Assembly (NCBI RefSeq): GCF_003550175.1
Contig: NZ_QXDF01000005.1
Location: 1 to 64,000 of the forward strand
Source: Dichotomicrobium thermohalophilum
GTDB lineage: Bacteria; Pseudomonadota; Alphaproteobacteria; Rhizobiales; Rhodomicrobiaceae
DNA length: 64,000 bases
Direction: 5' to 3'
The notes beneath the pieces are model-generated. The model had not been told where the DNA came from. It searched no databases and saw only the letters and a program-made list of their open reading frames with translations. Within the stretch, counting starts at the first letter, position 1; each line of letters starts with the position of its first letter. Below are positions 14,485 through 33,774 of the stretch, piece after piece. Position numbers and translations under genes: made by a program.

Positions 14485-14559
14485 TATCAAATATTTCATC
14501 CATTTATCAAAAACTTGCCTTTCGCGCATTCGCTCCCGCGCTAGTTGCGTTCGAGACCG

Positions 14560-17685: not shown

Positions 17686-18323
17686 CGTTGTCCCTCCAGT
17701 GCCCGGCGTGTGTGGCATAGGAACACACGCTCAGATTGCATACCGGGACTTTCCGCAACGAATCAGGGCACGTCAACGTGGAGCGGGTGCGCTTCACGCC
17801 ATTCACGCGCAAGCACGCGCGCTTTACCCGCTGATGGTGTAGCGGGGACACAGAATTGGGGTCGCCGCATCAGCCCGAAGCGCGGTGCTTGAGGCTTTTG
17901 CCGGTGCACGCATCACCACGCCGCGCAAGCGCGGGCCGCCCGCGGGGACCGGGGGACAAGCCTCCAATCTGCTTGGCGTTTCGTCTCCAAGTCATCGCGG
18001 ATAAGCTTACAAGAGGTGAGCCTGCTCGTGGCAACTGAGGACGTACCTTGCCGAGCGACGCCGCCTCGGGGTGAACTGGTGCGCTCCTCGGCTTGGTGCT
18101 TGCCGTCAGCCACTGCCACCCTGCCGATGTCTGCCGTGTCCATGGCCGGATATGTGCCGCTCTCGAACCTCCGGCGCGTTTTTCCAATGATTTGCGACAG
18201 TAGCGACACAGCCGCCACCCTGGTCGCTGGCCTGGGTTAGCGTCGTGGACCCCGGGCTTCTCCGGGTCACCGCTCGCTCGGGCCGACCGCTGACGCGTTG
18301 GCGCATCGCGCGGTCGCCGGGCA
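17686..18323. other. gene-poor stretch upstream of the barrel gene and downstream of the ebo genes
   Basis: The 638 bp hold no coding region I can support. The longest open frames (minus 17913-18218 and 17870-18784) lack known motifs and run antisense to or through real genes. A short imperfect hairpin (GACCCCGG...CCGGGTC, ~18248-18267) lies 60 bp past the TatD-like gene and could end its transcript. Confidence 0.4.
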
Positions 18324-19262
18324 CTACCTGATGATGAGCTTGTCTTCCGCCTGCGCGGGCGACACTGGCTCCTCGATGCGCGGGGCGGCGCCGCCGCGCA
18401 GGATCGAGTTTCCGGCATACAGCGTGCGCTGATCAATTGGCGACGGGTTGAGCCAGTCCTCTTCGGACATCTGGCCGCTCTGGCCATACGCCGCGAGCGC
18501 GTTCGCGTAGCAGGCCTTGTGGATTTGCTCCTGCGGAATGCCGCGCTCGGCTGCGAGCTTCGCCGTCTTGGGAACGGCAAGGCTATCCGAGACGCCCCAG
18601 TCGCAGGCCGAATCCACGATGATCCGCTCCGCCCCGTACTGCTTGAGCAGTTCGACCATCCGCTCGTTGCCCATCTTCGAGCCGGGATAGATCGAGAAGG
18701 CGGCCCAGAAGCCGCGCTGCAGCGTCTCGGCGATGGTCTCCTCGTTGTTGTGGTCGACGACGACCTTGTCCGGCGGCAAGCCATGTTCCTCCACCACGTC
18801 CATCGAGCGCGATGTGCCGCGCTTCTTGTCGCGATGCGGCGTGTGGATCATCACGGGCAGGTCGAGTTCCTTGGCCAGTTCGAGCTGGGCGCGGAAATAC
18901 TTGTCCTCCAGCGGGGTCTGCTCGTCATAGCCGATCTCGCCGATCGCCACGACGCCGTCCTTCAGCGCGAAGCGCGGCAGGATCTCCATCACCTGCTCGG
19001 CCAGTTCCTCGTTATTGGCTTCCTTGGAGTTCAGCCCGATCGTGCAGTAGTGGCGGATGCCGAACTGCCCGGCGCGAAAGCGCTCCCAGCCGACGATGGT
19101 GGACAGATAGTCGATATAGGTGCCGACATATGTGCGCGGCTGGCCGATCCAGAAGGCCGGCTCGATCACGGCGACGACTCCGGCGGCGGCCATGGCCTCG
19201 TAGTCGTTCGTGGTGCGCGAGATCATGTGCGCGTGCGGGTCGATGTACATCGGCGTGGTCAT
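18324..19262 (-). CDS. eboB: TatD-family metal-dependent hydrolase, EboB-like
   Basis: A 312-aa amidohydrolase-fold enzyme. Metal ligands appear as D8-P-H10-A-H12, E in VAIGEIGYDEQ, H in LPVMIHTPHRD, H in VVVDHNNEE and D in IVDSACDWG. It is longer than housekeeping TatD and has the layout of the EboB/'TatD-like' protein of ebo clusters. ATG 19262 is chosen because AAGGAG lies seven bases upstream. The GTG at 19283 would overlap the EboA gene. It directly follows the EboA-domain gene, which supports the assignment. The substrate is unknown. Confidence 0.8.
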   Translation of the reverse strand: MTTPMYIDPHAHMISRTTNDYEAMAAAGVVAVIEPAFWIGQPRTYVGTYIDYLSTIVGWERFRAGQFGIRHYCTIGLNSKEANNEELAEQVMEILPRFALKDGVVAIGEIGYDEQTPLEDKYFRAQLELAKELDLPVMIHTPHRDKKRGTSRSMDVVEEHGLPPDKVVVDHNNEETIAETLQRGFWAAFSIYPGSKMGNERMVELLKQYGAERIIVDSACDWGVSDSLAVPKTAKLAAERGIPQEQIHKACYANALAAYGQSGQMSEEDWLNPSPIDQRTLYAGNSILRGGAAPRIEEPVSPAQAEDKLIIR

Positions 19263-19279
19263 GGCGCGGCTCCTTGTCT

Positions 19280-20149
19280 TCACGCGGCGTCGAGACGCGC
19301 GCTCAAGACGTCCCAGGTCAGGGTACCGTCCGCAATTTGCGCGGCGAGCTCATGCATTGCGGCAAGGCGCTCGGCGGCCAGCGGCGACGGGCTTACGCTC
19401 AGCGCCAGCGCGGCGGCCGCTTGTTCATTCGGGTCGCTGCTACGCGCGGCCTGGTCCAGATCGGCGAGCGCCGCCTCGTCTTGCGCAAACGGCCCCACGC
19501 ACCGCCAAAGCTCGGGCGAGACCGGCCGCCCGGCCGCCCAGCGCTCATGGGCATAGTCGCGCAGCATCTGCGCCAGTTCCGCATTGGCCCGCTCATCCAG
19601 CCCCTGGATCGGGTGCAGCCGGCTGTCCACGAACAGCGCCTTGAGCACCATGTGGTTCCAGCGCGACTCGTCAAAATACAGGCGCGGATAGGGGTTATTG
19701 TGCGCGACCGCCTCGAAGATCGCGCGCATGTTCGATCGCACGCCCTCGGCGGCCTGGGGCTCCAGCGCCTCGGGCGACGGGTAGAGGATCAGCCCGCGAT
19801 AGAACGCAATCGCCTCCGCCACGTCGGCTGTTCGGCAGAGCTGGCGGAAGCGCTCGGGAAAGTCGTTGCGGCCCGCGACGGTCTGCAAGAGGGTCAGGAC
19901 GCGAGCGGTGCCGTCGACGCTCCACCCTTGCGGGGACCACCCCGGCTGCACGCGTTCAGCAGCAGCAAGGTCGTCGGCGGTGAGATCGAGATCGGCCTTC
20001 CCGAGCTTGCGCGGGATCAGCCCCAGCGTGATGAAGAGGTCTTTCTCCGGCGTCGCTGCGCCTGCGGCATTGCGCTCCTCAAGCCATTGCCAGTGCTCGG
20101 GCGGAAGCTGGCGCTGAAGCCAGCCTTGCATCAGATCGCGTGCTGTCAT
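19280..20149 (-). CDS. eboA: EboA-domain protein
   Basis: A 289-aa helical protein of the EboA domain family, for which no activity is established. Characteristic stretches are LFITLGLIPRKLGKADL near residue 40, AIAFYRGLILYPSPEAL, MRAIFEAVAHNNPYPRLYFDE (in part) and WNHMVLKALFVDSRLHPI. It has no signal peptide or membrane segment. It starts the minus-strand eboA-eboB unit and is divergent from the eboF-like gene 149 bp away. All six ebo components lie within 7 kb, so the assignment is firm even though the function is not. Confidence 0.82.
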   Translation of the reverse strand: MTARDLMQGWLQRQLPPEHWQWLEERNAAGAATPEKDLFITLGLIPRKLGKADLDLTADDLAAAERVQPGWSPQGWSVDGTARVLTLLQTVAGRNDFPERFRQLCRTADVAEAIAFYRGLILYPSPEALEPQAAEGVRSNMRAIFEAVAHNNPYPRLYFDESRWNHMVLKALFVDSRLHPIQGLDERANAELAQMLRDYAHERWAAGRPVSPELWRCVGPFAQDEAALADLDQAARSSDPNEQAAAALALSVSPSPLAAERLAAMHELAAQIADGTLTWDVLSARLDAA

Positions 20150-20298
20150 GACCGGGCCTCTATCGTTTTCTGAAAGCGTTGTTCGGCCCGTTGCTTCATC
20201 GGCTTGTTATCTTTAAGCATCTCACCGAGCACGGTAGCCAACAGCCGCCAGCTTGTGAAGGGCAGATCACCGCCAGGTATCACCGGCATCGCGGGGAG

Positions 20299-21690
20299 AT
20301 GATGACACCGACACTGGTCATCCTGGTCGTCGGGCTTTCGCCCGATCTTGTGGGAGAGCACACGCCGAACCTGTCGCGTCTCGCCAAACAGGGCGGCATG
20401 CGCCCGATGAAGCCCGTGTTGCCCGCCGTCACCTGTAGCGTTCAGTCCACGCTGATGACCGGCCGGCCGCCTTCGGGCCATGGCGCTGTCGCCAACGGCT
20501 GGTACTTCCGCGATCTCGCCGAGGTGCTGCTCTGGCGGCAGCCGGACATGCTGATCGACGGCGAGATGATCTGGGAAGCGGGCCGCAACCGCGATCCCGA
20601 CTTCACCTGCGCCAAGATGTTCTGGTGGTACAACATGTACTCCAGCGCGGACTGGAGCGCGACGCCCCGCCCGATGTACCCCGCCGATGGCCGGAAGATC
20701 CCCGATCACTACGCGCAGCCGCAATCGCTGCGCGACGAGCTGAACGACAAGCTGGGCATGTTCCCGCTGTTCAAGTTCTGGGGGCCGGCGACCGACATCT
20801 CGTCCAGCGAGTGGATCGCCGATTCGACCATCCACGTGTTGGAGACGCGCCAGCCGACGCTCGCCCTGACCTACTTGCCGCATCTGGATTACAACCTCCA
20901 GCGGCTGGGACCGGACCTGTCGCATCCGCGGCTGCAAGAAGATCTCCGGGAAGTCGACGCGGTTTGCGGGAGATTGATGGAGGCAGCGGAACGTGAGGGC
21001 CGGCATGTCATCGTGGTTTCGGAATACGGCATCACGCCCGCAACCGACGCGGTGCACATCAACCGCGCCCTGCGCGAAGCCGGCCTGATCGCCTGGCGCG
21101 AGGAAATGGGGCGCGAGGCATTCGACCCCGGCGCCTCCGAAGCCTTCGCAATGGCGGACCACCAGATCGCGCATGTCTACGTGCGCGATCCAGAGCGCAT
21201 CGCGGAAGTGCAGGCGTTGATCGCTGGGCTGGACGGTGTGGAACAGGTGCTCGACGAGGAGGGCAAGCGCGCCTACGGGCTGGACCACCCGCGCTCGGGC
21301 GAACTCGTGGCGATCGCCGCGCCGGACCGCTGGTTCAGCTATTACTACTGGCTGGACGACGACCGCGCGCCGGACTACGCCCGCACCGTCGATATTCACC
21401 GCAAACCCGGCTATGACCCGGTCGAGTTGTTCATCGACCCGGACATCAGGTGGCCCAAGCTCGCGGTGGGCTGGCGGCTGGGTTTGCGCAAGCTGGGCTT
21501 CCGGCGGCTTCTGGACGTCATCTCGCTGAAGGATACGCAGCTCGTGAAGGGTTCACACGGCCGGCTGCCCCACAGGCCGGAAGAAGGGCCGCTTGTGATG
21601 AGTTCGCAGCCCGACCTGCTACCCGAGGGTACGGTAGAGGCGACGGGCTTCAAGCAACTCGTGCTCGATCATGTCTTCGGTCTGTCCTGA
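20299..21690 (+). CDS. eboF: alkaline-phosphatase-fold nucleotide pyrophosphatase/phosphodiesterase, EboF-like
   Basis: A 463-aa type I phosphodiesterase/nucleotide pyrophosphatase. The N-terminus TPTLVILVVGLSPDLVGEHTPNL has a metal-binding Asp in SPDL. The nucleophile is T45 in PAVTCSVQSTLMTGRPPSGHG. Further metal ligands are in YLPHLDYNLQ, VVSEYGITPA and ADHQIAHVYV. GGGGAG abuts ATG 20299; the next ATG at 20302 is equally possible. The TTG-initiated frame from 20179 lacks a ribosome site. It is transcribed divergently from eboA and converges on eboC. Confidence 0.82.
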   Translation: MMTPTLVILVVGLSPDLVGEHTPNLSRLAKQGGMRPMKPVLPAVTCSVQSTLMTGRPPSGHGAVANGWYFRDLAEVLLWRQPDMLIDGEMIWEAGRNRDPDFTCAKMFWWYNMYSSADWSATPRPMYPADGRKIPDHYAQPQSLRDELNDKLGMFPLFKFWGPATDISSSEWIADSTIHVLETRQPTLALTYLPHLDYNLQRLGPDLSHPRLQEDLREVDAVCGRLMEAAEREGRHVIVVSEYGITPATDAVHINRALREAGLIAWREEMGREAFDPGASEAFAMADHQIAHVYVRDPERIAEVQALIAGLDGVEQVLDEEGKRAYGLDHPRSGELVAIAAPDRWFSYYYWLDDDRAPDYARTVDIHRKPGYDPVELFIDPDIRWPKLAVGWRLGLRKLGFRRLLDVISLKDTQLVKGSHGRLPHRPEEGPLVMSSQPDLLPEGTVEATGFKQLVLDHVFGLS

Positions 21691-21777
21691 TAGACATGCG
21701 CCGCCAGTGTCATGCTCCCCAGCGCGCCCGAAGGACGTGCCGAGCCGCCGACTGGCGGCCGGCCCGTTGGGCCGAAA

Positions 21778-21799
21778 CCGGCGGACGGATGTCCGCCGG
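21778..21799. terminator. perfect hairpin between convergent eboF and eboC genes
   Basis: CCGGCGGAC-GGAT-GTCCGCCGG forms a 9-bp perfect stem with a 4-nt loop. It sits in the 164-bp gap between two genes ending toward each other, so it may serve both transcripts. There is no T-run. Confidence 0.5.
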
Positions 21800-21813
21800 A
21801 AAGCCAAGAAACC

Positions 21814-21841
21814 GGATTGCTTCGCTATGCTCGCAATGACG
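21814..21841. repeat. copy of the dispersed GTCATTGCGAGCG-type palindromic repeat
   Basis: The stretch reads ATTGCTTCGC...GCTCGCAATGAC on the plus strand, with ATTGC and GCAAT as inverted arms. It matches a short intergenic repeat I know from many bacterial genomes (GTCATTGCGAGC...GAAGCAATCC). Only one copy was noticed in this window. Confidence 0.6.
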
Positions 21842-21854
21842 TGATTCTGGCGGC

Positions 21855-22724
21855 TCAAGTGCCGGGAATGACGCGCTGAAAGGCGATCGTCAGCAGGAAC
21901 CCGGCCAGCGCCACCGCCGCCAACTCTGCGGAGAAAATGCTGATCAGCGCCGCATCATAAAGTGCCATGCCCGCGATCAGGCTCACGACCCCGCGCGGCA
22001 CGTCTCCCGGCGCGCGCCGCAGGAAGCGGCGCACGGCGAGCGCGGCCCAAGTTGCGAACACGGCAAGGATCAAAATCGGGAGAATCGCCCCCTGCGAAAG
22101 CACCGCGACGATGATCAGGGGCAGCGTCAGCAACAGCAGCGGCCACAAGCTGCCCATCTGGTTCAGCGACTCCTGCTTCGCCGCATAGGTCAGCCCCGCC
22201 GTGTAGCTCCATAGGCCGAGGGCGGCCAGCAGCACGGGCGTTTCTGCGGGCCCGGCGACCGCCGCCGCCGCGATCAGGTACACCAGAAACCGGCAGGCGC
22301 CCATAATGACAGGCGCGAGCGTGGTGCGCTTGTGCAACCAGTCATAGAGCAGGATAGCGCCGGCGAGTGCGACACCCAGCCAGCCCGCGGCCGCGCTCAC
22401 GGCGAACAACAGGAGCACACCCGCCAAGAGTTGCCCCGCGCCCAGCAGGAACACGGTACTGCGGCTGATCTTGCCGGTCGGTATGGGCCGGTTCGAGCGC
22501 TGCGCCGCGTCGATCTCCGCGTCGAACGCATCGTTGAGGAACATGCCGCCCGTGTAGTGAAGCGACACCGCCAGGATCAGCAGCAGCATCGTCGCGAGGT
22601 CGGGCGCCATGAACCGCACCGGCTCCGCCGCGAAGGCCGCGCCCAGCACGGCCCCGGCCAGCAGGTTCGTCCAGACCGTCGGCAGGTTCGACACCCGACC
22701 CAGGATCAACAGCGTGCGCAGCAT
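21855..22724 (-). CDS. eboC: UbiA-family prenyltransferase-like membrane protein, EboC-like
   Basis: A 289-aa inner-membrane protein with about eight or nine helices. The first Asp-rich motif is N64-D-A-F-D68-A-E-I-D72, followed by RSNRPIPTGKIS, as in UbiA enzymes. The second Asp-rich motif normally seen near residue 190 is not evident; the equivalent loop reads LTYAAKQESLN. ATG 22724 shares one base with the stop of the preceding eboE gene, so the two are coupled. EboC is thought to attach or handle a prenyl or polyprenyl-like group; the acceptor here is unknown. Confidence 0.82.
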   Translation of the reverse strand: MLRTLLILGRVSNLPTVWTNLLAGAVLGAAFAAEPVRFMAPDLATMLLLILAVSLHYTGGMFLNDAFDAEIDAAQRSNRPIPTGKISRSTVFLLGAGQLLAGVLLLFAVSAAAGWLGVALAGAILLYDWLHKRTTLAPVIMGACRFLVYLIAAAAVAGPAETPVLLAALGLWSYTAGLTYAAKQESLNQMGSLWPLLLLTLPLIIVAVLSQGAILPILILAVFATWAALAVRRFLRRAPGDVPRGVVSLIAGMALYDAALISIFSAELAAVALAGFLLTIAFQRVIPGT

Positions 22725-23911
22725 CAGGCATTCAGGCGGGTCGTCACCCAGGACAGCTCGCGCGCGATGGCGTCCTCGACCGGCACATTCCGCAAGTCTG
22801 GCGGCAGGACATCCCAGGTATAGGTTTCCACTTCGAGGTGATCGGAGATCGGCGCTTGCCGGTGCAACTCCAGAACCTCGGCGAGCACGTGCTGGGTCGT
22901 GCTGAAGTGCTCCAGCTCGGCAAGGAACAGCGGCACGTGGAAATGCACGCGCCACTCGTCGTAGCTCTGCGCCTCGGCGGCCGCAAAGGCATCGGGCAGA
23001 TCGAGAAACCGCTCCAGTGTCTCGCCGCGCCGCGCCACGACCTGATGCAGATAGGTTTCCTCATCGAAGGCGCGCAGGCGTTCGAGCGTCTCGGGCGTCA
23101 CGCGCCGCAGATGCAGCGCCGCGCTAAGCTGGAGCTTGGGCACGGCGATGCCCGCTCCCCGCAGCGCGGCGACCGATTCCCCGGGGTCTTCGTACTCCAC
23201 GGCGGCGTGGCAGACATCGAAGCATACGCCGAGATGCCGGCGCAGCGCCTGTTCCGCCTGCGCCGAAGACAGGCCGGTCAGTTCACCCATGCGCCGAACA
23301 GAGTTGACGTTTAACAGCCAATCCTGAAAAAAGGTGAGAGCTTCGCCGGTCGTCTCAAGGTAGCAGTGCGGCTCAGGCTCCAGCGCCAGCGCGATCTGCT
23401 TTCCGGTCTCCTCGGAAATCCGATGCAGATGCACCGCATGGCGCAGAAGATGCTCGCGCATCGCCTCTTCCTGTCCGCGCCCGACCGGGCGAAAGGCGCA
23501 GGGTACCGTGCTGATGCTGCCGGTCATGCCCTCCGGCAGCAGCCGGGCCAGCAGATCCGCCAGCCGGTTCGTATAATCGAGCCGCGCACCCTCGGCCCAG
23601 CTCGGCTCATACACCTTCGCCTTCACGGTGGTGTCGTGAAACGGGCCGTAGGGAAAGCCGTTGATCGTGAAGACGTAAAGATCGTTTTCCGAAAGGAGGG
23701 CCGCGAAATCCTCTAGATTGTTTGGTGCGGCCAGCGCCTCCGCCGCCCGCGCCGACAGCCGCAGGCCCACGCCGAAAGGCTGCTCGGGGCAAACCCGCTG
23801 CTTCACCCGCGTGACGCGCTCCGCCACCGTGCGGCGCGTTTCCGCCCAGGTCTCACCCGGATGAATGTTCGTGCAGTAGGTCAGGCAGCCCAGCTCCCCC
23901 CGCAAGTGCAT
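22724..23911 (-). CDS. eboE: xylose isomerase-like TIM-barrel protein, EboE-like
   Basis: A 395-aa protein with a sugar-phosphate isomerase/epimerase-type TIM barrel. It begins MHLRGELGCLTYCTNIHPGETW, which is characteristic of EboE-type members (the CTNIHPGETW part). Putative metal ligands lie in LALEPEPHCYLE, GVCFDVCHAAVEYEDP and VHFHVPLF. ATG 23911 overlaps the eboD stop by one base, so the longer frame up to 24112 is not needed. It sits between eboD and eboC in one transcription unit. Confidence 0.82.
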   Translation of the reverse strand: MHLRGELGCLTYCTNIHPGETWAETRRTVAERVTRVKQRVCPEQPFGVGLRLSARAAEALAAPNNLEDFAALLSENDLYVFTINGFPYGPFHDTTVKAKVYEPSWAEGARLDYTNRLADLLARLLPEGMTGSISTVPCAFRPVGRGQEEAMREHLLRHAVHLHRISEETGKQIALALEPEPHCYLETTGEALTFFQDWLLNVNSVRRMGELTGLSSAQAEQALRRHLGVCFDVCHAAVEYEDPGESVAALRGAGIAVPKLQLSAALHLRRVTPETLERLRAFDEETYLHQVVARRGETLERFLDLPDAFAAAEAQSYDEWRVHFHVPLFLAELEHFSTTQHVLAEVLELHRQAPISDHLEVETYTWDVLPPDLRNVPVEDAIARELSWVTTRLNA

Positions 23912-25107
23912 CAGACTTCTCTTCGCTTTTCCAGCCAGTCTATGGCTTCGAGCACCTTGTCTTCGGCGATCTCGTGAACGTCCACGCCGGTGCCGATGTC
24001 GCTGAGCATGGTCACGGTCAACTCGCCGCCGAGATGCTCGCGGAACTCCCGCAGGCCGCGCAGGACAGCCAGGTTGCCACTCGCGTCGATCTTGCGCAGC
24101 GCCGGATGCCACAGCTTGAAACCCAGATGCTCCAGGAGGAAGCAGACGCGATCATCCTCTCCTTGCGGCAGCAGCCCGGAAAGCACAGAGTAACGCGTGT
24201 CGAGCGCGATGCCGATGGCGACTGCCTCGCCGTGGCGCAAGTGGTGATGCGTGATCGATTCCAGCTTGTGCGCGGCCCAGTGGCCGAAATCCAGCGGCCG
24301 CGCGCTGCCCGTCTCGAACGGGTCGCCGCCATGCGCGATCTGGTTCATGTGAAGTTCGGCGCAGCGCCGGATCATGTAGGCCATCGCATCCGGCGCGAAG
24401 ATCGACAGCGCGTCGGCGTTGCGCTCCAGCCAGCCGAAAAAGTCTGCGTCGCGGATCAGCGCGACCTTCACCGCCTCGGCCATCCCGGCGATCATTTCGC
24501 GCACGGGCAGCGTGTTCAGCAGCTCGGAATCGTTGATGACCGCAAAGGGCGGGGCGAAGGTCCCGACGAAGTTCTTGACGCCATTCAGGTTCACGCCGTT
24601 TTTCACGCCGACGCCAGAGTCGTTCTGGGACAGCACGGTGGTGGGGATGCGAACGTGGCGAACGCCGCGATGCGACGTTGCCGCGACCAGCCCGACCATG
24701 TCCAGCACCGCACCGCCGCCGACCGCGATCACATAGGAGTGGCGGTCGATGCCGTGCTCGTAAACCTGATCCTGGGCCTGCTCGACGAAGGCCAATTCGT
24801 TCTTGACCTTTTCGCCGCCCGGGACGGGGCGCGGCGGCGCCACCAGCGTCATGCGGTTGCCGTGGGCCGTGGCGTATTCGGCGATCCGGGACGGGAGGTC
24901 GGGCGCGCAGGCCAGCAGGCCGTCATCGACAAAGACGAGACAGCGGTGCTGCTTGTCCGGTTCAAAACGTGTCAGCGTGTCGATCAGCGCCGGGTTGTCC
25001 GGACGAAACACGCCCGAGGTAAACACAACCGGGTACTCGTATGGCACCGAAAACCGCTGCCAGTGGATATTCGTTGCCGATGCCTCTCCCGTCTCAACTC
25101 TGCTCAT
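23911..25107 (-). CDS. eboD: 3-dehydroquinate synthase-like cyclase, EboD-like
   Basis: A 398-aa member of the sugar-phosphate cyclase family. The NAD-binding GGGAVLDMVGL is at ~130-140. The IPTTVLSQNDSGVGVKNGVN loop and MAEAVKVALIRD (metal ligand E211) are present, and further metal-binding His residues occur in PLDFGHWAAHKLE and LRHGEAVAIGI. Housekeeping AroB proteins are shorter and have IPTTLLAQVDSSVGGKTGV at this site, so this is a divergent cyclase. It is the first gene of the eboD-eboE-eboC unit. The product may be a cyclitol or dehydroquinate-like ring; this is inference. Confidence 0.83.
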   Translation of the reverse strand: MSRVETGEASATNIHWQRFSVPYEYPVVFTSGVFRPDNPALIDTLTRFEPDKQHRCLVFVDDGLLACAPDLPSRIAEYATAHGNRMTLVAPPRPVPGGEKVKNELAFVEQAQDQVYEHGIDRHSYVIAVGGGAVLDMVGLVAATSHRGVRHVRIPTTVLSQNDSGVGVKNGVNLNGVKNFVGTFAPPFAVINDSELLNTLPVREMIAGMAEAVKVALIRDADFFGWLERNADALSIFAPDAMAYMIRRCAELHMNQIAHGGDPFETGSARPLDFGHWAAHKLESITHHHLRHGEAVAIGIALDTRYSVLSGLLPQGEDDRVCFLLEHLGFKLWHPALRKIDASGNLAVLRGLREFREHLGGELTVTMLSDIGTGVDVHEIAEDKVLEAIDWLEKRREV

Positions 25108-25219: not shown

Positions 25220-25576
25220 ATGCGTTACATCTCTGGCGCGCTCGCGCTGTTTCTGCTCCTTTTCGCCGTGGCTCAGTACAACGATCCGGACGGGCTGTTC
25301 TGGGCGGTGGCGTATGGGGTTCCCGCTCTGTGGGCGATTGGTTTCGCTTTCGCTCCGTCGGCGCTACGCGGCACTGTGCCGGCGGCGCTGTTCACCGCCT
25401 GCGCGATCATCGCTTTCGTCGGCGTATACTACTTCTGGCCGCAGGCCAACGAATGGTGGCGTCAGGACGTCTGGTGGAACGATGAGGCTGCGCGCGAAGG
25501 GATGGGGCTGATGATTGTCGCTGCATCATTTCTCTTTCTCGCTGTGGCGATATTTCGCACCCGCCGACATGCGTGA
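25220..25576 (+). CDS. TMEM220-family small membrane protein
   Basis: A 118-aa protein with four hydrophobic helices and the conserved motif AVAQYNDPDGLFWAV followed by PALWAI. The C-terminal EAAREGMGLMIVAA is also typical of transmembrane family 220. ATG 25220 follows GGAGGG by four bases. It is divergent from the eboD unit, 112 bp away. No function is known for the family. The location beside the ebo genes may be chance. Confidence 0.7.
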   Translation: MRYISGALALFLLLFAVAQYNDPDGLFWAVAYGVPALWAIGFAFAPSALRGTVPAALFTACAIIAFVGVYYFWPQANEWWRQDVWWNDEAAREGMGLMIVAASFLFLAVAIFRTRRHA

Positions 25577-25756: not shown

Positions 25757-27187
25757 ATGAACCGCGTATTATCGACGCTTGCAGCTACAGCCATCGCCCT
25801 CGGGCTCGGCACCGCGGCGCACGCGCAGTCGGTCCCGCAGACCGTGGACGAGGTGGCGGAGCCTGGCGGCACGCTGCCGGGCAACCCCGAGATCGCGCTC
25901 GTCAAGGTGGCTGAAGGCTTCGCTGACCCGACGAACGTCACCAGTGCCAACGATGGCTCTGGTCGCATTTTCGTCGTAGAACGCGTCGGCCGCGTGAAGA
26001 TCGTCAATCCGGACGGCACGGTTCAGGAAGAGCCGTTTCTGGACCTGACGAACATCAACCCGCTTGGGTCTGACGTGCAGACCGGCTTCGTGGAGCAGGG
26101 CCTCTATTCCTTGGCTTTCCATCCGAATTTCGAGGAAAATGGCTATTTCTTTGTCCATTACGCCTCGCTGCCGTTCAACGGCGACGGCGTGATCGTGCGT
26201 TTCCAGGTCGATCCGGAAAGCCCGAATGTCATGACGCCCGAGCGGACCAACGAGACCGCGAAGGTCATCATGCGGATCGAGCAGCCCTACTATAACCACA
26301 ACGGCGGACAGATCGCGTTCGGTCCCGACGGCTATCTCTACATCGGCAGTGGCGACGGCGGCTGGGAAGGCGACCCGCTCCAGGCGGGCAAGGACCTGTC
26401 CACGCCACTCGGCAAGATGCTCCGCGTTGACGTGGATGTCCCGGAGGACGACCTGCGGCCTTACCGCATCCCGGCGGACAACCCCTTCGCCACGGCAGCA
26501 AAAGAGCGGCTGATGGTCCTCTTCGGCATCACCGAGGAAGAGTTCGCCGAAATCCGCACCAAGGCCGAGCCGGAAATCTGGGCTTACGGTGTCCGCAACC
26601 CGTATGAATTCTCGTTCGACCCGGAGACGGGCGATCTCTACATCGCCGATGTCGGCCAGAACCATTGGGAAGAGATCATTTATCAGCCAGCGGACAGCAA
26701 GGGCGGCGAGTATTACGGCTGGCCGGACATGCAGGGCACGTTCTGCCATCCGATGACCGGTGATCCCGCAGAGCAGGAGTGCTCGGTCGTGGGCGTTCTG
26801 CCGGCCGCCCAGTATCCGCACCAGACACCCTACCCGGGCGCTGAGGACCTTGAAGAAGGTTTCGGCTGCTCCGTGCAGGGGCTCGGCGTGGCCAACTACG
26901 GCGGCATGGACGGCGTTTACCTCGCCGGCGACTGGTGCTCCGGCCGCGTCTTCGGCCTGGGCTGGGACGAAGACGCCGGAAAATGGCAGCTGCAGGAGCT
27001 TCTGCAGACCGGGCTGCAGTTCACCGCCGGCGGCTACGACGAAGACGGCAACGTCCTGGCCGTGACCGCCAACAACTTCTACCTCGCCGATCAGGGCCCG
27101 CTGCAGAACCCTCCGGGCGCGCTTTGGCGCGTTGTGCCTGCGGATGAGGTTCCCGAAGGCGCCGAGGTCGCTCGGGTCAAGGAGTAA
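25757..27187 (+). CDS. periplasmic PQQ-dependent sugar dehydrogenase (soluble GDH / sorbosone dehydrogenase fold)
   Basis: A 476-aa six-bladed propeller quinoprotein. The signal peptide cleaves at AHAQ (residue ~23). The conserved NHNGG block contains the putative catalytic H181, followed by FGPDGYLYIGSGDGGWEGD. Later family blocks are PEIWAYGVRNPYEFSFDPETG and DLYIADVGQNHWEEI. Two Cys (FCHPMTGDPAEQECS) may form a disulfide. ATG 25757 has AAGGAGG five bases upstream. It is paired with a cytochrome c gene downstream across a perfect hairpin. The substrate is unknown; PQQ synthesis genes are not in this window. Confidence 0.88.
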   Translation: MNRVLSTLAATAIALGLGTAAHAQSVPQTVDEVAEPGGTLPGNPEIALVKVAEGFADPTNVTSANDGSGRIFVVERVGRVKIVNPDGTVQEEPFLDLTNINPLGSDVQTGFVEQGLYSLAFHPNFEENGYFFVHYASLPFNGDGVIVRFQVDPESPNVMTPERTNETAKVIMRIEQPYYNHNGGQIAFGPDGYLYIGSGDGGWEGDPLQAGKDLSTPLGKMLRVDVDVPEDDLRPYRIPADNPFATAAKERLMVLFGITEEEFAEIRTKAEPEIWAYGVRNPYEFSFDPETGDLYIADVGQNHWEEIIYQPADSKGGEYYGWPDMQGTFCHPMTGDPAEQECSVVGVLPAAQYPHQTPYPGAEDLEEGFGCSVQGLGVANYGGMDGVYLAGDWCSGRVFGLGWDEDAGKWQLQELLQTGLQFTAGGYDEDGNVLAVTANNFYLADQGPLQNPPGALWRVVPADEVPEGAEVARVKE

Positions 27188-27293: not shown

Positions 27294-27788
27294 ATGCGTT
27301 CCGCACTTATCGGCATCAGCCTTTTGGCCCTCGTGGCCGCAAGTTTCTCATTGCTGCCTTCCAGCCTGTCGGCGCAGGACAGCGCGCCTGAAAAGAAGGA
27401 CGGCAAGGTGGTTTTCCGGCACGTTCTGGACGATGCACCGATCGAATTCGAGTTCAAGCCGGAACAGGAAATCACGGAGGCCGTCGAGATTTTCCATCAG
27501 ACCGCCGAAAACCCGTACTCGGGCAACGAGGAAGCCATCGCGGATGGCAAGAAGCTGTACAACGGGCTGTGCTCCGCCTGCCACCTGCCGGATGGCACCG
27601 GCCGGATCGGACCGAACCTCGTTGACGACAAGTACGGCTATGACGACATCGCAACCGACAAGGGCAAGTTCGAGATCATCTATGCCGGCGGCGCAGGCGC
27701 GATGCAAGCCTTCGGTCGGCGCCTCACCCAGGACGAGATTTTGCGCGTCATGGCCTACCTTGAGAAGCTGAAGGCCGAGGCGTCCTGA
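27294..27788 (+). CDS. exported cytochrome c of the methanol-dehydrogenase cL (MxaG/XoxG)-like type
   Basis: A 164-aa monohaem cytochrome. The signal peptide ends at SLSAQD (residue ~25). The haem motif is C93-S-A-C-H97. The flanking pattern TEAVEIFHQTAENPYSGNEE...GKKLYNGLCSACH, RIGPNLVDDKYGYDDIATDKG and FEIIYAGGAGAM closely follows cytochrome cL, quoted here in pieces. ATG 27294 follows GTGGAG closely. The neighbour is a six-bladed sugar-dehydrogenase-type quinoprotein, not a methanol dehydrogenase, so it probably takes electrons from that enzyme. Confidence 0.82.
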   Translation: MRSALIGISLLALVAASFSLLPSSLSAQDSAPEKKDGKVVFRHVLDDAPIEFEFKPEQEITEAVEIFHQTAENPYSGNEEAIADGKKLYNGLCSACHLPDGTGRIGPNLVDDKYGYDDIATDKGKFEIIYAGGAGAMQAFGRRLTQDEILRVMAYLEKLKAEAS

Positions 27789-28067: not shown

Positions 28068-29357
28068 GTGAATCTCAAATCAATAATCTCATCCTGCCTC
28101 AGCTTCATCGTGGCCGCCGTACTCGCGGCAGGAACGGCCACCGCTCAGGAAAAAATCAAGCTCGAACCCTTCGTCGAGGGCCTGAACCAGCCAGTGGCAA
28201 TGGTCCAGACGCCTGACGGCCGCATGTTCGTCGCCGAGCAGTGGGGTCGCGTCCGCGTGGTCACCGCCGATGGCCAACTCCTCGGCGAGCCGCTCCTGGA
28301 CATTCGCCACCTCATAGTCGACCAGATACCGGACTTCGACGAGCGTGGTCTCATCGGCCTGGCGCTCCATCCGGATTTCGAGAACAACGGCAAGTTCTAT
28401 GTCGCCTACTCCGGCCACAAGGACTGGCAGGGGCGCCTCAACGAACTGCTCTGGTACGACCACAACAACGTCGTCGCCGAGTACACGATTTCCGATGAGA
28501 ACGAGAATCTGGCGGACCGGTTCTCCGGGCGTGTGCTCTCGTCGATCGCATGGCCGCAATTCAACCATAACGGCCACTGGATGGATTTCGGCCCGGATGG
28601 AATGCTTTACGTCTCTGTGGGTGACGGTGGCTACGCGAATGACTGGGGCATCGGCCACAATGTGCGTACCGGCAATGGTCAGGATGTCACGACCGTCCTC
28701 GGATCGATCATGCGTCTCGATCCGGAAACCGGTGAAGCGGCTGAAGGCAACCCGGACCTGGGGCCGGACGCCGACCCGCGCATCTGGGCCTACGGCCTGC
28801 GCAACGCATGGCGCTGCTCCTTCGACATGGGCGGCGACAATGAACTGTTCTGCGCCGATGTCGGACAGAACAGCTATGAGGAAGTGAACATCGTCGAAGC
28901 CGGCGACAACCTCGGCTGGCGCCGGATGGAGGCGAGCCATTGCTTCAACTATCTGGAGCCGGACAACCACCCCGAGGAGTGCGACACGTCAGGGCTGAAG
29001 ATGCCGATCATCGAATACGAGAACTGCACGGCCCGGCCGCAGAACTGCAAGGGCATCTCCATCACGGGCGGCTACGTCTATCGCGGCAGCCACGAGCCCT
29101 GGCAGGGCAAATACATCTTCGGTGACTGGTCCAAACAGTTCGGCGCCTATGACGGCCAGATCTTCTTCGGCACCGAGGGCGAGGACGGCAACTGGACCAT
29201 GGAGACTGCCGAGGTCACCAACATGGACGGCAATATCCCCTACGTCCTGTCCTTCGCGCAGGACAATGACGGGGAGGTCTACGCCCTGACCTCGGTCACC
29301 ACCGGTCCGGCTGGCGGTGCTCAGGACACGATCTACAAGATTGTGCCCAGCGAGTAA
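28068..29357 (+). CDS. periplasmic PQQ-dependent sugar dehydrogenase, second copy
   Basis: A 429-aa six-bladed propeller quinoprotein, paralogous in fold to the enzyme 2 kb upstream but clearly different in sequence. The signal peptide cleaves at ATAQE. The conserved block FNHNGHWMDFGPDGMLYVS holds the putative catalytic H167 and continues into VGDGG. PRIWAYGLRNAWRCSFD and FCADVGQNSYEEVN follow. Several extra Cys (CFNYLEP, EECDTSG, ENCTARPQNC) suggest disulfides. The start is GTG 28068 behind GGAGG. It is followed by its own cytochrome across a perfect hairpin. Confidence 0.88.
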   Translation: MNLKSIISSCLSFIVAAVLAAGTATAQEKIKLEPFVEGLNQPVAMVQTPDGRMFVAEQWGRVRVVTADGQLLGEPLLDIRHLIVDQIPDFDERGLIGLALHPDFENNGKFYVAYSGHKDWQGRLNELLWYDHNNVVAEYTISDENENLADRFSGRVLSSIAWPQFNHNGHWMDFGPDGMLYVSVGDGGYANDWGIGHNVRTGNGQDVTTVLGSIMRLDPETGEAAEGNPDLGPDADPRIWAYGLRNAWRCSFDMGGDNELFCADVGQNSYEEVNIVEAGDNLGWRRMEASHCFNYLEPDNHPEECDTSGLKMPIIEYENCTARPQNCKGISITGGYVYRGSHEPWQGKYIFGDWSKQFGAYDGQIFFGTEGEDGNWTMETAEVTNMDGNIPYVLSFAQDNDGEVYALTSVTTGPAGGAQDTIYKIVPSE

Positions 29358-29453: not shown

Positions 29454-29801
29454 ATGAAGTCCGCTTTCACAGCTGCGCTCTTGGCCGCGGTCATTGCGCT
29501 ACCGGCATACGCGCAGGAGGCGAGCAAGCCGCCCGAGCCATTCACCGAGGATTTCCTGAGCGACGCCGAAAACATCAACGCCGGCCAAGAGATGTGGGCC
29601 GAACAGTGCCGCCACTGCCATGGCCGTACCGCCTATCCGGGGAAGGCGCCGAAACTGAAGCCATACAAGTATAAGCCGGAGTTCGTGTATCGCCGCGTTA
29701 CCGACGGCTTCCGCAAGATGCCTTCCTGGGAAGAGGTCTACACGGACCTCGAGCGCATGCAGATCACGGCCTACGTGCTCAGCGACGATTTCTCGCCGTG
29801 A
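29454..29801 (+). CDS. exported small monohaem cytochrome c
   Basis: A 115-aa protein. The signal peptide ends at PAYAQEAS (residue ~21). The haem motif is C52-R-H-C-H56 in AEQCRHCHGRTAYPG. A likely axial Met lies in GFRKMPSWEEVYTDLER. ATG 29454 has AGAGAAG upstream. It differs from the first pair's cytochrome in lacking the long N-terminal extension of the cL type. It is the likely electron acceptor of the preceding dehydrogenase. Confidence 0.82.
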   Translation: MKSAFTAALLAAVIALPAYAQEASKPPEPFTEDFLSDAENINAGQEMWAEQCRHCHGRTAYPGKAPKLKPYKYKPEFVYRRVTDGFRKMPSWEEVYTDLERMQITAYVLSDDFSP

Positions 29802-29847: not shown

Positions 29848-30023
29848 CCTGCCGGCCCTGACCGCCTGCTGCGCGCTGTTCTTTTCATGCAGTCCTGCTG
29901 AGCGCGCGCTTCGCGTAACAAGCAAGGCCCGGCGGGCAGCCGCGAGCGCGTGTCCGCTCTGGCGGTTCGCGGGTATAAGATGGCTGGACCGGGCACCAAT
30001 TTTCAGCATTGGAGGCGCAGGCA

Positions 30024-31322
30024 ATGAACTTGGCGAGAATGGCGGCGAGCCGGATGGAAGCCGGTCGGCCTGTGCGGGCCGGCCTCATCGGAGCCGGCAA
30101 GTTCGGCTCGATGTTTCTCGCGCAGGTGCCGACCATCGCCGGGCTTGAAGTAACCGCCATCGCCGATCTGGCACCGGACCACGCCCGGGCAGCCTGCCGG
30201 ACCGTCGGATGGGACGATGCGCGGACCGAGAAAATCGCGTTTACCGAAGACGGCACTGCGCTCGCAGCGCGCGATGATGTCGAGGTCGTCATCGAGGCCA
30301 CCGGACAGCCCCGCGCCGGGATTTCGCATGCGCAGGCCGCGATCGCGGCCGGCAAGCATGTCGTGATGGTCAATGTCGAAGCCGATGTTCTCGCCGGTCC
30401 GGCGCTGGCGCAGCGCGCGGCGAGCGCAGAGGTCGTCTACTCGATGGCATATGGGGATCAGCCGGCGCTGGTGGCCGAATTGGTCGACTGGGCACGTGCT
30501 TCCGGCTTCTCGGTCGCGGCCGCCGGCAAGGGGACGAAGTATCTTCCTGAGTATCACCACGTCACGCCTGATAACGTCTGGGAGCACTATGGGCTGAGCC
30601 TGGACGAGGCGCGGCGGGCCGGCATGAACCCGCAGATGTTCAACTCGTTTCTGGACGGGACGAAAAGCGCAATCGAAATGGCTGCAATCGCAAACGCGAC
30701 CGGCCTTGCTGTTCCCCGTGCCGGCCTGAGCTTTCCGCCCTGCGGAGTCGACGATCTTCCACATGTCCTGCGGCCCCGTAGCGCCGGCGGTCAGCTTGAG
30801 CATTCCGGCATGGTCGAGGTCGTCTCCAGCCTGGAGCGCGACGGGCGCCCGGTCTACCGGGACCTTCGCTGGGGCGTTTACGTGCTTCTTGAAGCGCCGA
30901 ACGACTATGCCGCCGCGTGCTTTCGCCAATATGGCCTGCCGACCGACAGCACGGGCCGCTATGCGGCCATGTACAAGCCGTTTCACCTGATCGGTCTCGA
31001 ACTGTCGATCTCGGTGCTGAGTGCGGCGCTGCGTCGTGAGCCCACCGGGTGCGCCCACAGCTTCCGGGGAAATGTAGCCGCGGTCGCCAAGCGCGATCTT
31101 GCGGCGGGCGAGATGCTGGACGGCGAGGGCGGATACACTGTCTGGGGCAAACTGGTGCCCGCGGATGCGGGCGCGTCCGCCGACGTCCTGCCCATCGGGC
31201 TGGCCCACGGCATTCCGCTGGTGCGCAACGTCAGCGAGGGCGAAATTCTGACATTCTCCGATGTCAAAATCCCCGACGATGAGGTCATTGGCATCTACCG
31301 GGAGGCGACGCTGACGGCATGA
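30024..31322 (+). CDS. NAD(P)-binding dehydrogenase with C-terminal SAF domain
   Basis: A 432-aa cytoplasmic protein. The Rossmann motif is VRAGLIGAGKFGSMFLAQV (near residue 20). A homoserine-dehydrogenase-like middle contains VVIEATGQP, HVVMVNVEADVLAGP and AAGKGTKYLPEY. An SAF-type C-terminal domain follows (AKRDLAAGEMLDGEGGYTVWGKL, in part, then IPLVRNVSEGEILTFSDV). Such proteins are often mislabelled FlgA because of the SAF domain. ATG 30024 has GGAGG eight bases upstream. It is the first of three sugar-type enzymes here but is 267 bp from the next gene, so co-transcription is uncertain. The substrate is unknown. Confidence 0.75.
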   Translation: MNLARMAASRMEAGRPVRAGLIGAGKFGSMFLAQVPTIAGLEVTAIADLAPDHARAACRTVGWDDARTEKIAFTEDGTALAARDDVEVVIEATGQPRAGISHAQAAIAAGKHVVMVNVEADVLAGPALAQRAASAEVVYSMAYGDQPALVAELVDWARASGFSVAAAGKGTKYLPEYHHVTPDNVWEHYGLSLDEARRAGMNPQMFNSFLDGTKSAIEMAAIANATGLAVPRAGLSFPPCGVDDLPHVLRPRSAGGQLEHSGMVEVVSSLERDGRPVYRDLRWGVYVLLEAPNDYAAACFRQYGLPTDSTGRYAAMYKPFHLIGLELSISVLSAALRREPTGCAHSFRGNVAAVAKRDLAAGEMLDGEGGYTVWGKLVPADAGASADVLPIGLAHGIPLVRNVSEGEILTFSDVKIPDDEVIGIYREATLTA

Positions 31323-31589
31323 CGGCCTCTGGCCCGGCACGGGGGCGCATCCACAGGCCCTGCTGCGGGATAAAGCGCGGCGATCTTCCTCGGCGGCTGC
31401 GCAACCCCGTCAGGACTGAACAGGTCGCGGCCGAGCGGGACACACGGGCAAAACGAATTTCCTCGTGTATAAGTTGTTAAACGCTGCGCATGGCCACGTT
31501 GACTCTGCAGGCGCGCTGGGGGGAAGCTGGATCAAGCGCAAACGGGGTGTGCTTTCACTTGCTTGCGCGCAACGGGACGGGAGGGATTC

Positions 31590-32777
31590 GTGGGAAGCAG
31601 TCAGACGGATGGGGGCTACGGGCTGAATGTCACACCGACGGGCTTGGCCGAGCAGCGCCTTCTCTTGGGCGATCAGATCGACCAGGCGATCGCGCGCGTT
31701 CTGGCGCATGGGCAGTTTATCCTTGGCCCGGAGGTGACCCAGCTTGAGCAGCGGTTGGCCGATTTCTGTGGCGCGCGCCATTGCGTCACTTGCGCCAGCG
31801 GCACGGACGCGCTCCAGCTCCTGCTGATGGCAGAAGGCGTCGGTCCGGGCGATGCCGTATTCGTGCCCGCCTTTTCCTTCGTGGCGACCGCCGAGATCGT
31901 GCCGCTCGTCGGCGCCGTACCGATTTTCGTGGATGTCAGCGCGGACAGCTTCAACATGGACCCGTCGAGCCTCGAGGCGGCGATTGGTCTGGCGACGCGC
32001 CTCGGACTACGGCCGCGCTGCGTGATCGCTGTCGATCTGTTCGGACAGCCCGCAGACTATGACGCCATAGACGCCGTGGCCGCACCCCACGGCCTGACCG
32101 TGATCGCCGACGCCGCTCAGAGCTTCGGCGCCAGCCGCCACGGCCGCGCGGTCGGCACACTCGGCCATCACACGGCCACAAGTTTCTACCCGACCAAACC
32201 GCTGAGCTGCTACGGCGACGGCGGCGCGATCTTCACGGACGATGATCACGTCGCTGATCTGCTGCGTTCGTTGCGGGTCCACGGGCAGGGACGATCCAAG
32301 AACGACAATATCCGGGTCGGGTTGAACAGTCGGCTCGATACCATCCAGGCGGCAATCCTGCTGGCGAAACTCGACCTGTTCCCCCAGGAAATCCTGGAAC
32401 GGCAGGCCAGGGCCCGCCGCTATAGCGAAGGACTTGGCGATATCCTGCGGGTGCCCGAGGTGCAAGAGGGCGCGAGCTCCGTTTGGGCACAATATACACT
32501 GGTGCTGCAGGACCGGGACGAGCTGGCGGCGCTGTGCCGGCAGGCGGGCATACCCGCAGCCGTTTACTACCCCGTGCCGCTCCATGCCCAGCCAGGCTAT
32601 CGGCGCTTCCCCGCCACGCCCACCGGCCTCACGAATGCGGAGTGGCTTGCCAAACACGTCATCAGCCTGCCGATCCATCCCTATCTCGATGCTGAGACGC
32701 AGGACGCGATCATGCAGACTGTTCGCAGGGGGCTCCAAGCCGTCGGGAAACTCTCTCTGGATGCACAGTATGCCTGA
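31590..32777 (+). CDS. DegT/DnrJ/EryC1/StrS-family PLP aminotransferase
   Basis: A 395-aa sugar aminotransferase. The conserved blocks are GQFILGPEVTQLEQRLADFCG, then CASGTDALQLLL, DEVFVPAFSFVAT-like VFVPAFSFVATAE and VIADAAQSFGA. The PLP lysine is K203 in SFYPTKPLSCYGDGG. The C-terminal RVHGQG and YYPVPLHAQPGYR are typical of WbpE/WlbC-like enzymes making 3-amino sugars. GTG 31590 is chosen because GGGAGGG lies four bases before it. The oxidoreductase that could make its keto substrate starts about at its stop. It probably makes an amino sugar nucleotide for a surface polysaccharide. Confidence 0.85.
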   Translation: MGSSQTDGGYGLNVTPTGLAEQRLLLGDQIDQAIARVLAHGQFILGPEVTQLEQRLADFCGARHCVTCASGTDALQLLLMAEGVGPGDAVFVPAFSFVATAEIVPLVGAVPIFVDVSADSFNMDPSSLEAAIGLATRLGLRPRCVIAVDLFGQPADYDAIDAVAAPHGLTVIADAAQSFGASRHGRAVGTLGHHTATSFYPTKPLSCYGDGGAIFTDDDHVADLLRSLRVHGQGRSKNDNIRVGLNSRLDTIQAAILLAKLDLFPQEILERQARARRYSEGLGDILRVPEVQEGASSVWAQYTLVLQDRDELAALCRQAGIPAAVYYPVPLHAQPGYRRFPATPTGLTNAEWLAKHVISLPIHPYLDAETQDAIMQTVRRGLQAVGKLSLDAQYA

Positions 32778-32802
32778 CACCCGGTCTCAGGGACCATCGC
32801 CA

Positions 32803-33774
32803 ATGGCAGATCCTATCCGCGTTGCCGTCGTGGGGGCCGGCTATTTCGGGCGCTTCCATGCGAAGCATTACGCCGCCGCGCCGCGAGCGAAACTCGTAGC
32901 CGTCGTCGATACCGACGAAGCGCGCGCCCGAACGGTGGCGGCAGAAGCGGGCTGCGAGTATTTCTGCGACTATCACAGTCTCGTCGGGCGCGTGGACGCG
33001 GTCAGTGTCGCGGCGCCCACGCCGGCGCACTTCCAGATCGCGAGGGACCTGATGGCGGCCGGCCTCCACGTTTTCGTCGAAAAGCCGCTGACCGATAGCG
33101 TGGAGAGCGCCAGTACGCTGGCTGAACTCGCCGAGTCGCAGGGTCGGGTGCTGCAGGTCGGTCACGTTGAGCGCTACTCAGCGGCTTTCCGCGCCCTGGC
33201 GAAACGCGTCACGCGCCCGCTGTACATAGAAAGTTACCGTATCGCGCCCTGGCGGGAGCGCGGGGTCGAGGTGGACGTGATCCTCGACCTCATGATCCAC
33301 GACATCGACATCGTCATGGGGCTTGTCGGCTCGCCCGTCACGCAGGTGGAAGCTGTCGGGACGCCCGTTCTGAGCGGGACGACCGATCTGGCGAACGCGC
33401 GGCTCGTTTTCGAGTCCGGGTGCGTCGCCAACATCACAGCGAGCCGGGTGAGCTACAAGACGGAGCGGCGCGTCCGTGTGTTTCAGCCCAACCAGTACGT
33501 GATCTGCGACATGGCCGAGGGGCGCATATTTCAATATCAGCTTCGCGGCAACCCGGCCGTCGAGGGGCCGGCGGCGATCGCGAGCGACTCCGTCGAGATC
33601 CCGAAAGAAGACAGCCTGGCCAACGAGATCAGCGAATTCCTCGACTGCGTCGCCACGGGGCGCCGGCCGACGGTGGATGGCCGCGCCGGATGCGAGGCGG
33701 TGCGCGTGGCGGGCATGATCAACGCGAGCATCGGTGCGCATCACGAGGCCGCGCTGGCGCTATCAGAGGTTTGA
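32803..33774 (+). CDS. Gfo/Idh/MocA-family oxidoreductase
   Basis: A 323-aa NAD(P)-dependent dehydrogenase. Rossmann motif VAVVGAGYFGRFHAKHY is near residue 8, followed by the family EKP motif in LHVFVEKPLTDS. The catalytic-type VDVILDLMIHDIDIVMGL contains the conserved D/H pair. ATG 32803 has AGGGA nine bases before it. An in-frame ATG at 32770 overlapping the aminotransferase stop is the alternative and would couple the two. Together they resemble a WlbA/WlbC-like pair for 3-amino uronate sugars, but no acetyltransferase or epimerase partner is present. Confidence 0.82.
   Translation: MADPIRVAVVGAGYFGRFHAKHYAAAPRAKLVAVVDTDEARARTVAAEAGCEYFCDYHSLVGRVDAVSVAAPTPAHFQIARDLMAAGLHVFVEKPLTDSVESASTLAELAESQGRVLQVGHVERYSAAFRALAKRVTRPLYIESYRIAPWRERGVEVDVILDLMIHDIDIVMGLVGSPVTQVEAVGTPVLSGTTDLANARLVFESGCVANITASRVSYKTERRVRVFQPNQYVICDMAEGRIFQYQLRGNPAVEGPAAIASDSVEIPKEDSLANEISEFLDCVATGRRPTVDGRAGCEAVRVAGMINASIGAHHEAALALSEV

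Follow-up and report, generated by a model that had tools for sequence, protein, structure and literature searches.

Dichotomicrobium thermohalophilum encodes a small cytochrome c that resembles cytochrome cL (MxaG/MoxG), and its gene adjoins that of a propeller protein of the sugar dehydrogenase type. The question raised by this locus is what such a cytochrome does beside such a protein. Both genes lie in a window of 64,000 nucleotides, which is the whole stretch of DNA analysed. The initial annotation named the propeller a quinoprotein and suggested that a methylotrophy cytochrome had been re-used for it. This first reading of the pair is partly supported; it was too narrow and missed the setting, which is an ebo cluster.

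The open reading frame of the cytochrome (27294..27788, + strand) is intact, starts with ATG, and encodes 164 amino acids with a signal-like N terminus. It contains a single haem-binding motif, CSACH (27570..27584, +, read from the sequence), and Met137 (27702..27704, +), which is invariant in an alignment of 33 and is presumed, from the role of its equivalent in cL, to be the sixth haem ligand. The NCBIfam profile for cytochrome cL/MoxG, TIGR03872, covers the whole domain (profile positions 2-123 of 133; E 7.9e-31), and the score of 106.9 bits lies below the curated equivalog cut-off of 147.8. Two relatives score 109.4 (L062) and 126.1 bits (L107), and six true cL proteins reach 192-230 bits, where true cL denotes the MoxG type; XoxG of Methylobacterium extorquens (6onq) matches only weakly. 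In a PDB sequence search, the top five matches are all cL/MoxG chains, with 7c90 first (1.8e-23) and 2gc4 at 8.2e-21. The predicted structure (pLDDT 86.8) matches cL with Z-scores of 20.7 (7c90, rmsd 1.3 over 127 residues), 19.0 (2mta), 18.7 (2d0w), and 13.7 (2c8s), and the next fold classes, cbb3 and c6, reach at most 11.8. The cL pattern described in the initial annotation is confirmed by the profile, the PDB matches and the fold, at a score under the family cut-off. A chance match of a class I cytochrome is ruled out, because the profile and fold scores are far above random likeness.

The window cytochrome shares with cytochrome cL/MoxG (MxaG; 7c90, 2d0w, 2c8s, and 2gc4/2mta of Paracoccus) a profile match over the whole domain, the region ahead of the haem included, as well as one CxxCH, a methionine downstream of it, and the fold. 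In contrast, the surroundings of the haem are CSACHLPDGTGR here and CSGCHGHxxEGK in cL, the C-terminal end of the profile is without a match, and the neighbouring gene is GSDH1 instead of MxaF/XoxF or moxJ. Isoelectric points do not separate the cL-like from the true cL group. The cytochrome belongs to its own sublineage within a known kind, and that its partner differs is firmly supported.

GSDH1 (25757..27187, +; PF07995, E 6e-30) lies upstream of the cytochrome gene, has a signal-like N terminus, and belongs to the six-bladed propeller proteins, the fold being seen in the predicted structure of the fused protein of a relative (L066). Genome contigs were scanned with alignment A1 and selected by the cytochrome sequence alone, with L051-L054 and L056 left out as copies of loci already in the scan. 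The scan yielded 79 loci, sorted by best match into 59 cL-like and 20 true cL loci; MxaF and XoxF were pooled under a single MxaF/XoxF-type label. In 56 of the 59 cL-like loci, GSDH1 lies within 1 kb of the cytochrome and shares its strand; the exceptions are L068, L102, and L126. The true cL loci have an MxaF/XoxF-type gene or MoxJ in 19 of 20 cases (L138 has neither), and ebo genes in none of the 20. One of these 20, L116, contains a homologue of GSDH1 at a distance of 2.7 kb on the opposite strand, and in the cL-like locus L090 there is, in addition, a match of 35% to the dehydrogenase. The cL-like gene of L126 (10001-10174), in a Hyphomicrobium ebo locus, keeps in frame only what follows the haem motif, and GSDH1 was not found there; it is a broken or mis-assembled copy.

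A single open reading frame, mostly of about 610 amino acids, encodes both GSDH1 and the cytochrome in 23 of the 59 loci; 20 of these frames are complete, and those of L078, L095, and L113 end at a contig edge. The fused loci come from Acidobacteria, Bryobacterales or Bryobacteraceae, two Planctomycetota, and one Phragmitibacter, and represent three phyla (Acidobacteria, Planctomycetes, and Verrucomicrobia). They form one group of 23 in a quick tree (SH-aLRT 94). The model of the L066 fused protein (pLDDT 83.8, pTM 0.86) consists of the propeller followed by a cL domain that superimposes on 7c90 at 1.1-1.3 A with a TMt of about 0.75. Such fusion in a single reading frame is strong evidence that both proteins act together, and the propeller as the partner of the cytochrome, as initially annotated, is borne out by conserved adjacency and gene fusion.

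The two genes also travel together within the order. Among 297 genomes, 39 have a match to the cytochrome, nine of them (the window genome included) at 45% identity or more and the others at 40% or less. Exactly these nine genomes also contain GSDH1 at 65% or more, and the next best GSDH1 reaches 46%. EboE is present in 13 of the 297, all nine pair genomes among them. The hypergeometric probability of this overlap of GSDH1, cytochrome, and EboE is 1.6e-14 with kinship ignored, and related genomes are not independent. In the eight relatives, the cytochrome adjoins GSDH1 in all eight and ebo genes in seven, and the eighth (G098) has its ebo genes on another contig.

A tree of 102 cytochromes separates 39 true cL sequences from 63 others, nearly all of them GSDH1-linked, by a branch with support of 100/100. 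When seven anchors are included (moxG from two mxa operons and from Paracoccus, plus four PDB chains), the split is 46 true cL against 63, again at 100/100. Both trees leave out L138, for its long branch, and L126, an open reading frame without a haem motif. Over the columns compared, the 2gc4 chain does not differ from the Paracoccus gene that adjoins MoxJ in L209. The clade of 61 that remains without L114 and L116 is likewise supported at 100/100; L114, an ebo locus with GSDH1, and L116 fall between the two cytochrome groups. The phylogeny with MxaG/MoxG anchors thus places the cytochrome outside the MxaG/MoxG clade and inside the wider cL family. The adjacency, the position of true cL genes beside other enzymes, and the fully supported split together argue that the pairing is real, and the cL-like cytochrome and GSDH1 are very probably partners.

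Rooting with seven other cytochromes of the window genome gave very long branches and a support of 48 for the outgroup branch. The root is weakly supported, and thus neither re-use of a methylotrophy cytochrome nor its reverse is established: the different partner stands, through adjacency and fusion, and the direction of the exchange does not. The mixed locus L116 (1-20360) contains the intermediate cytochrome, three dehydrogenase-like stretches at 28-33%, and a GSDH1 homologue at 59%, and may show how partners were swapped.

The cytochrome could also be an ordinary cL that serves a methanol-dehydrogenase-type enzyme encoded elsewhere, as its fold and profile are both of the cL type. No MxaF/XoxF-type gene is present in the 64-kb window, and in the whole window genome (2.99 Mb in 7 contigs, 99.84% complete) the methanol/ethanol dehydrogenase profile TIGR03075 finds nothing at E 1e-20 and otherwise two short fragments, neither of them above 30.2 bits. 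The absence of xoxF and mxaF that was first reported for the window therefore extends to the entire genome, and an orphan xoxF elsewhere, named at the time as contrary evidence, is excluded by this search. An orphan cL serving a distant xoxF is ruled out in the same way, and no second cL-like match in the genome exceeds 27.4 bits. The genome counts for TIGR03075, and those for EboE, pqqE, and pqqC below, refer to 59 genomes, namely 53 with the pair and six controls, and omit the loci L068, L078, L092, L100, L103, L108, L111, L116, L121, L126, and L139. TIGR03075 is absent at E 1e-20 from 14 of the 53 genomes with the cL-like cytochrome, that is, from the window genome and 13 others. In G139, G232, and G288, a true cL elsewhere in the genome adjoins a dehydrogenase over the TIGR03075 cut-off, and G139, from the same family as the window genome, has MoxJ as well. 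These absences, the fully supported tree split, and a profile score under the cut-off that six true cL proteins clearly exceed make a role as ordinary cL extremely unlikely.

The pair in the window belongs to an ebo cluster in which eboA-F is complete, all six genes lying inside 18324-25107. EboE, a TIM-barrel protein (22724..23914, -), scores 480.7 bits with NF035939 (cut-off 250), and EboD, a sugar phosphate cyclase similar to 3-dehydroquinate synthase (23911..25107, -), scores 590.2 bits with NF004852/PRK06203 (cut-off 333). EboA (19280..20149, -) exceeds the cut-off of 50 for the EboA domain NF035938 with 171.3 bits, and has 256.9 bits with NF035937 (cut-off 320). The EboC-like UbiA prenyltransferase (21855..22730, -; PF01040) stays under the cut-off of 250 for NF035940 with 116.8 bits (E 1.1e-33). 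The EboB-like TatD-family hydrolase (18324..19283, -; PF01026, E 7.6e-18) and the EboF-like type I phosphodiesterase/pyrophosphatase (20179..21690, +; PF01663, E 1.9e-64), both conserved in ebo loci, are assigned by Pfam. Between the cluster and GSDH1 lies a gene for a TMEM220-family membrane protein (25220..25576, +; PF15071, E 1.6e-14), which recurs in other proteobacterial ebo loci (L062, L073, L074, L080, L084, and L102). On the other side, a PF13557 'phenol MetA-pathway' protein (16723-17718, -) adjoins the cluster. Near it is a large protein (14545-16716, +) with several doubled-CxxCH haem motifs of the c554/c7 kind and a TPR half, whose neighbours are a sulfatase (12623-14281) and a HAD-type hydrolase (11582-12562).

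Ebo genes are present, at least in part, in 29 of the 36 unfused loci, from alpha- and gammaproteobacteria. At the genome level, EboE occurs in 32 of the 53 pair genomes and in none of the six controls. The unfused genomes contain it in 29 of 33 cases (the four without are G303, G307, G335, and G338) and the fused ones in three of 20. With 17 of 20 fused genomes lacking EboE, the pair needs no ebo there, and the acidobacterial fused protein works without EboE. In the stretches examined, the fused acidobacterial gene has no convincing recurrent neighbour from which its substrate could be named.

A second propeller and cytochrome follow downstream of the first pair. GSDH2 (28068..29357, +; PF07995, E 1.5e-40) is another protein of the GSDH family, paired in other ebo loci with cyt2, a second small cytochrome c (29454..29801, +; PF13442, E 1e-12) that is also known from fusions. 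The window carries both pairs, and five ebo stretches without GSDH1 all have GSDH2 and cyt2, namely L194 (G013), L195 (G282), L196 (G098), L206 (G301), and L208 (G339). In L068 (1920-2813) and L102 (9914-10681), a cL-like domain is fused to cyt2 in a two-haem protein, with GSDH2 nearby. L197 (G181, at a contig end) and L207 (G299) have ebo genes and neither pair, L198 (G102) has EboE only, and in the more distant ebo stretches L201, L202, and L203, tblastn at E 1e-4 detects no GSDH or cL-like gene and neither of the pairs. From the second pair in stretches without GSDH1 and the two pairs in the window, it follows that a propeller with a cytochrome is frequent in alphaproteobacterial ebo loci, and not universal. 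Downstream of cyt2, the genes at 30009-33774 (+) encode a DRL/SAF oxidoreductase, a DegT-type aminotransferase, and a Gfo/Idh-type oxidoreductase, the latter two named by eye; this looks like a separate sugar pathway.

The distribution can also be read without a common pathway. GSDH1 and the cL-like cytochrome would then be a redox pair for a sugar, cyclitol, or alcohol in energy metabolism or scavenging, and ebo a mere favourable neighbourhood. This agrees with the fused form in genomes without EboE, where a recurring neighbour was not found, and with G098, in which the pair and the ebo cluster are on separate contigs. However, the frequency of ebo genes in the unfused loci of two proteobacterial classes speaks against it, as does the presence of GSDH2 and cyt2 in ebo clusters that do not have the GSDH1 pair, and a mere neighbourhood appears rather unlikely.

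Whether GSDH1 is a quinoprotein was judged from its residues and from PQQ synthesis. In soluble glucose dehydrogenase (sGDH), PMC6881789 describes His144 as catalytic, Arg408 near the C terminus, Lys377 as pairing with a carboxyl group of PQQ, and a conserved arginine located at the quinone. The residue counts for GSDH1 rest on 59 sequences, with pieces of 440 amino acids or less left out. His181 (26297..26299, +), the counterpart of the catalytic histidine, is invariant in all 59, as are Arg280 and Asn281 in the alignment with E. coli YliI. In sGDH, positions 228/229 hold the Arg-Asn that lies at the quinone, and Arg406 is the second member, beside Arg408, of the PQQ-binding C-terminal arginine pair. 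At this pair, none of the 59 GSDH1 sequences has an arginine or lysine in seven aligned columns. In the alignment with YliI and others, both GSDH1 and GSDH2 retain the histidine and the Arg-Asn and have no arginine at the RIRDV of YliI, and no equivalent of Lys377 is seen in the GSDH1 alignment. Cys371 and Cys394 are invariant in the 59 GSDH1 sequences and may form a disulfide; 58 of the 59 have His355.

Neither pqqE nor pqqC is over its cut-off in the window genome, in which a radical-SAM match at C6 has 54.5 bits against a cut-off of 381. In the 59 genomes, many of which are metagenome bins, pqqE is over the cut-off in 29 (all six methanol-dehydrogenase controls and 23 of the 53 pair genomes, leaving 30 of 53 without) and pqqC in 28 (all six controls and 22 of the 53). 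The term 'quinoprotein' of the initial annotation cannot be kept as worded, given the absent PQQ-clamping arginine pair in 59 of 59 sequences and a genome without pqqE and pqqC, and by its sequence GSDH1 is a doubtful quinoprotein. Apo-enzymes that take up PQQ from outside exist. PQQ is thus still a candidate cofactor of GSDH1, at somewhat less than an even chance.

Compared with the PQQ sugar dehydrogenases sGDH and Asd (PF07995), GSDH1 has in common the six-bladed fold (L066 model), the catalytic histidine, and the Arg-Asn. In contrast to them, it has neither the C-terminal arginine pair nor a visible Lys377 equivalent, and it has a putative electron acceptor of the cL type, encoded next door or fused. 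A natural union of a six-bladed propeller and a haem domain is also known from the quinohaemoprotein pyranose dehydrogenase CcPDH. CcPDH (PMC6881789) is a fungal protein with an AA12 propeller and a cytochrome b domain, its haem b being in an AA8 fold; PQQ is demonstrated for CcPDH and is a candidate for GSDH1.

The nearest solved relatives of GSDH1 by sequence in the PDB are HHIP proteins, which are not enzymes. GSDH1 might accordingly be a non-enzymatic binder or ligand-tethering propeller like HHIP, with the haem domain sensing or supplying electrons for something else. Besides HHIP being the best PDB sequence match, the structural comparison is a tie, as the L066 propeller gives Z 35.7 with HHIP, 36.1 (TMt 0.79) with the sugar dehydrogenase 2ism, and 34.9 (TMt 0.78) with the PQQ-bound 3das, and the missing arginine pair fits as well. 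However, the catalytic histidine and the Arg-Asn are invariant in GSDH1, the Arg-Asn has disappeared from HHIP (GLHDPGRC, where GSDH2 has GLRNAWRC), and the fused haem domain suggests that electrons flow. A binder of the HHIP type is improbable.

As far as sequence reaches, the pair is conserved, has signal-like N termini, is naturally fused in three phyla, and in its unfused form usually lies in an ebo cluster. The reading favoured here, with moderate confidence, is that the cytochrome serves GSDH1 as its dedicated electron acceptor in an ebo-coupled periplasmic oxidation module; given the partnership, the coupling to ebo is itself fairly probable. The Ebo proteins would synthesise a lipophilic or cyclitol-type product and bring it, or contribute to bringing it, to the periplasm. 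GSDH1, and in the window genome also GSDH2 with cyt2, would oxidise this ebo-dependent product there, with electrons passing from GSDH1 to the cL-like haem and on to a terminal oxidase. The cofactor of GSDH1 could be external PQQ in an altered site, or another cofactor.

The oxidation step is modelled on scytonemin synthesis and on the chemistry of an EboC homologue. In scytonemin synthesis, ebo exports the monomer, and Klicki et al. (PMC6282210) propose that the periplasmic propeller ScyE dimerises it oxidatively. The EboC homologue farnesylates quinoline-like aromatics (PMC9235831). Together, these suggest an oxidation of an ebo-dependent periplasmic compound by GSDH1. The loci considered here share with the ebo/ScyE system of Nostoc punctiforme the combination of ebo genes and an exported propeller, together with an oxidation proposed to occur in the periplasm. 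In contrast to ScyE, GSDH1 and GSDH2 belong to a different family by profile, and the main text of PMC6282210 mentions no cytochrome. Membership of the ScyD/ScyE family (NF033206, cut-off 80 bits) is rejected by the profile, GSDH2 having 18.6 bits and GSDH1 no match at E 0.01. The word 'cytochrome' is likewise absent from the main texts of the ebo papers PMC5133447 and PMC9235831; PMC5133447 leaves the extra genes of ebo operons unanalysed, and searches of the open-licence literature listed no report of the pairing.

Several lines of sequence evidence suggest the ebo-coupled module: the adjacency in 56 of 59 loci, the 23 fusions, the co-occurrence in the order, the presence of ebo genes at 29 of the 36 unfused loci, GSDH2-cyt2 in five ebo stretches without GSDH1, the fusions of cyt2 with the cL-like domain, and the invariant catalytic residues. 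Against it count the 17 of 20 fused and four unfused genomes without EboE, the ebo stretches without either pair, the arginine pair absent in 59 of 59, HHIP as the nearest solved relative, and PMC4870267, which argued against a direct role of ScyE in the last steps and predates the proposal of PMC6282210. A bolder version is that GSDH1 and its cL-like haem are a new haem-coupled propeller oxidoreductase without the usual PQQ use, in which an exported, prenylated, quinone-like molecule supplied by Ebo replaces PQQ in the altered site as redox partner or cofactor. One prenyltransferase of the Ebo pathway prenylates quinoline-type aromatics (PMC9235831). This version is distinctly improbable.

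For the widely conserved ebo cluster in bacteria outside the cyanobacteria, the conserved periplasmic pair of propeller and cytochrome suggests that an exported product is oxidised. The pair is worth a bench test because it is a possible clue to the product of non-cyanobacterial ebo clusters, and the cL-like haem, which can be read by a spectrophotometer, provides an assay that makes ebo chemistry easier to test. For genome annotation, cL-like matches alone do not prove methylotrophy, and annotations such as 'PQQ-dependent sugar dehydrogenase' need verification. The natural fusion is a ready single-chain form of what is engineered for electrodes, as in the aldose sugar dehydrogenase joined to cytochrome b562 of PMC12011955. 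In one of the fused loci, L083, a second GSDH1-like open reading frame (872-2602; 40%, 577 amino acids) lies immediately upstream of the fused gene.
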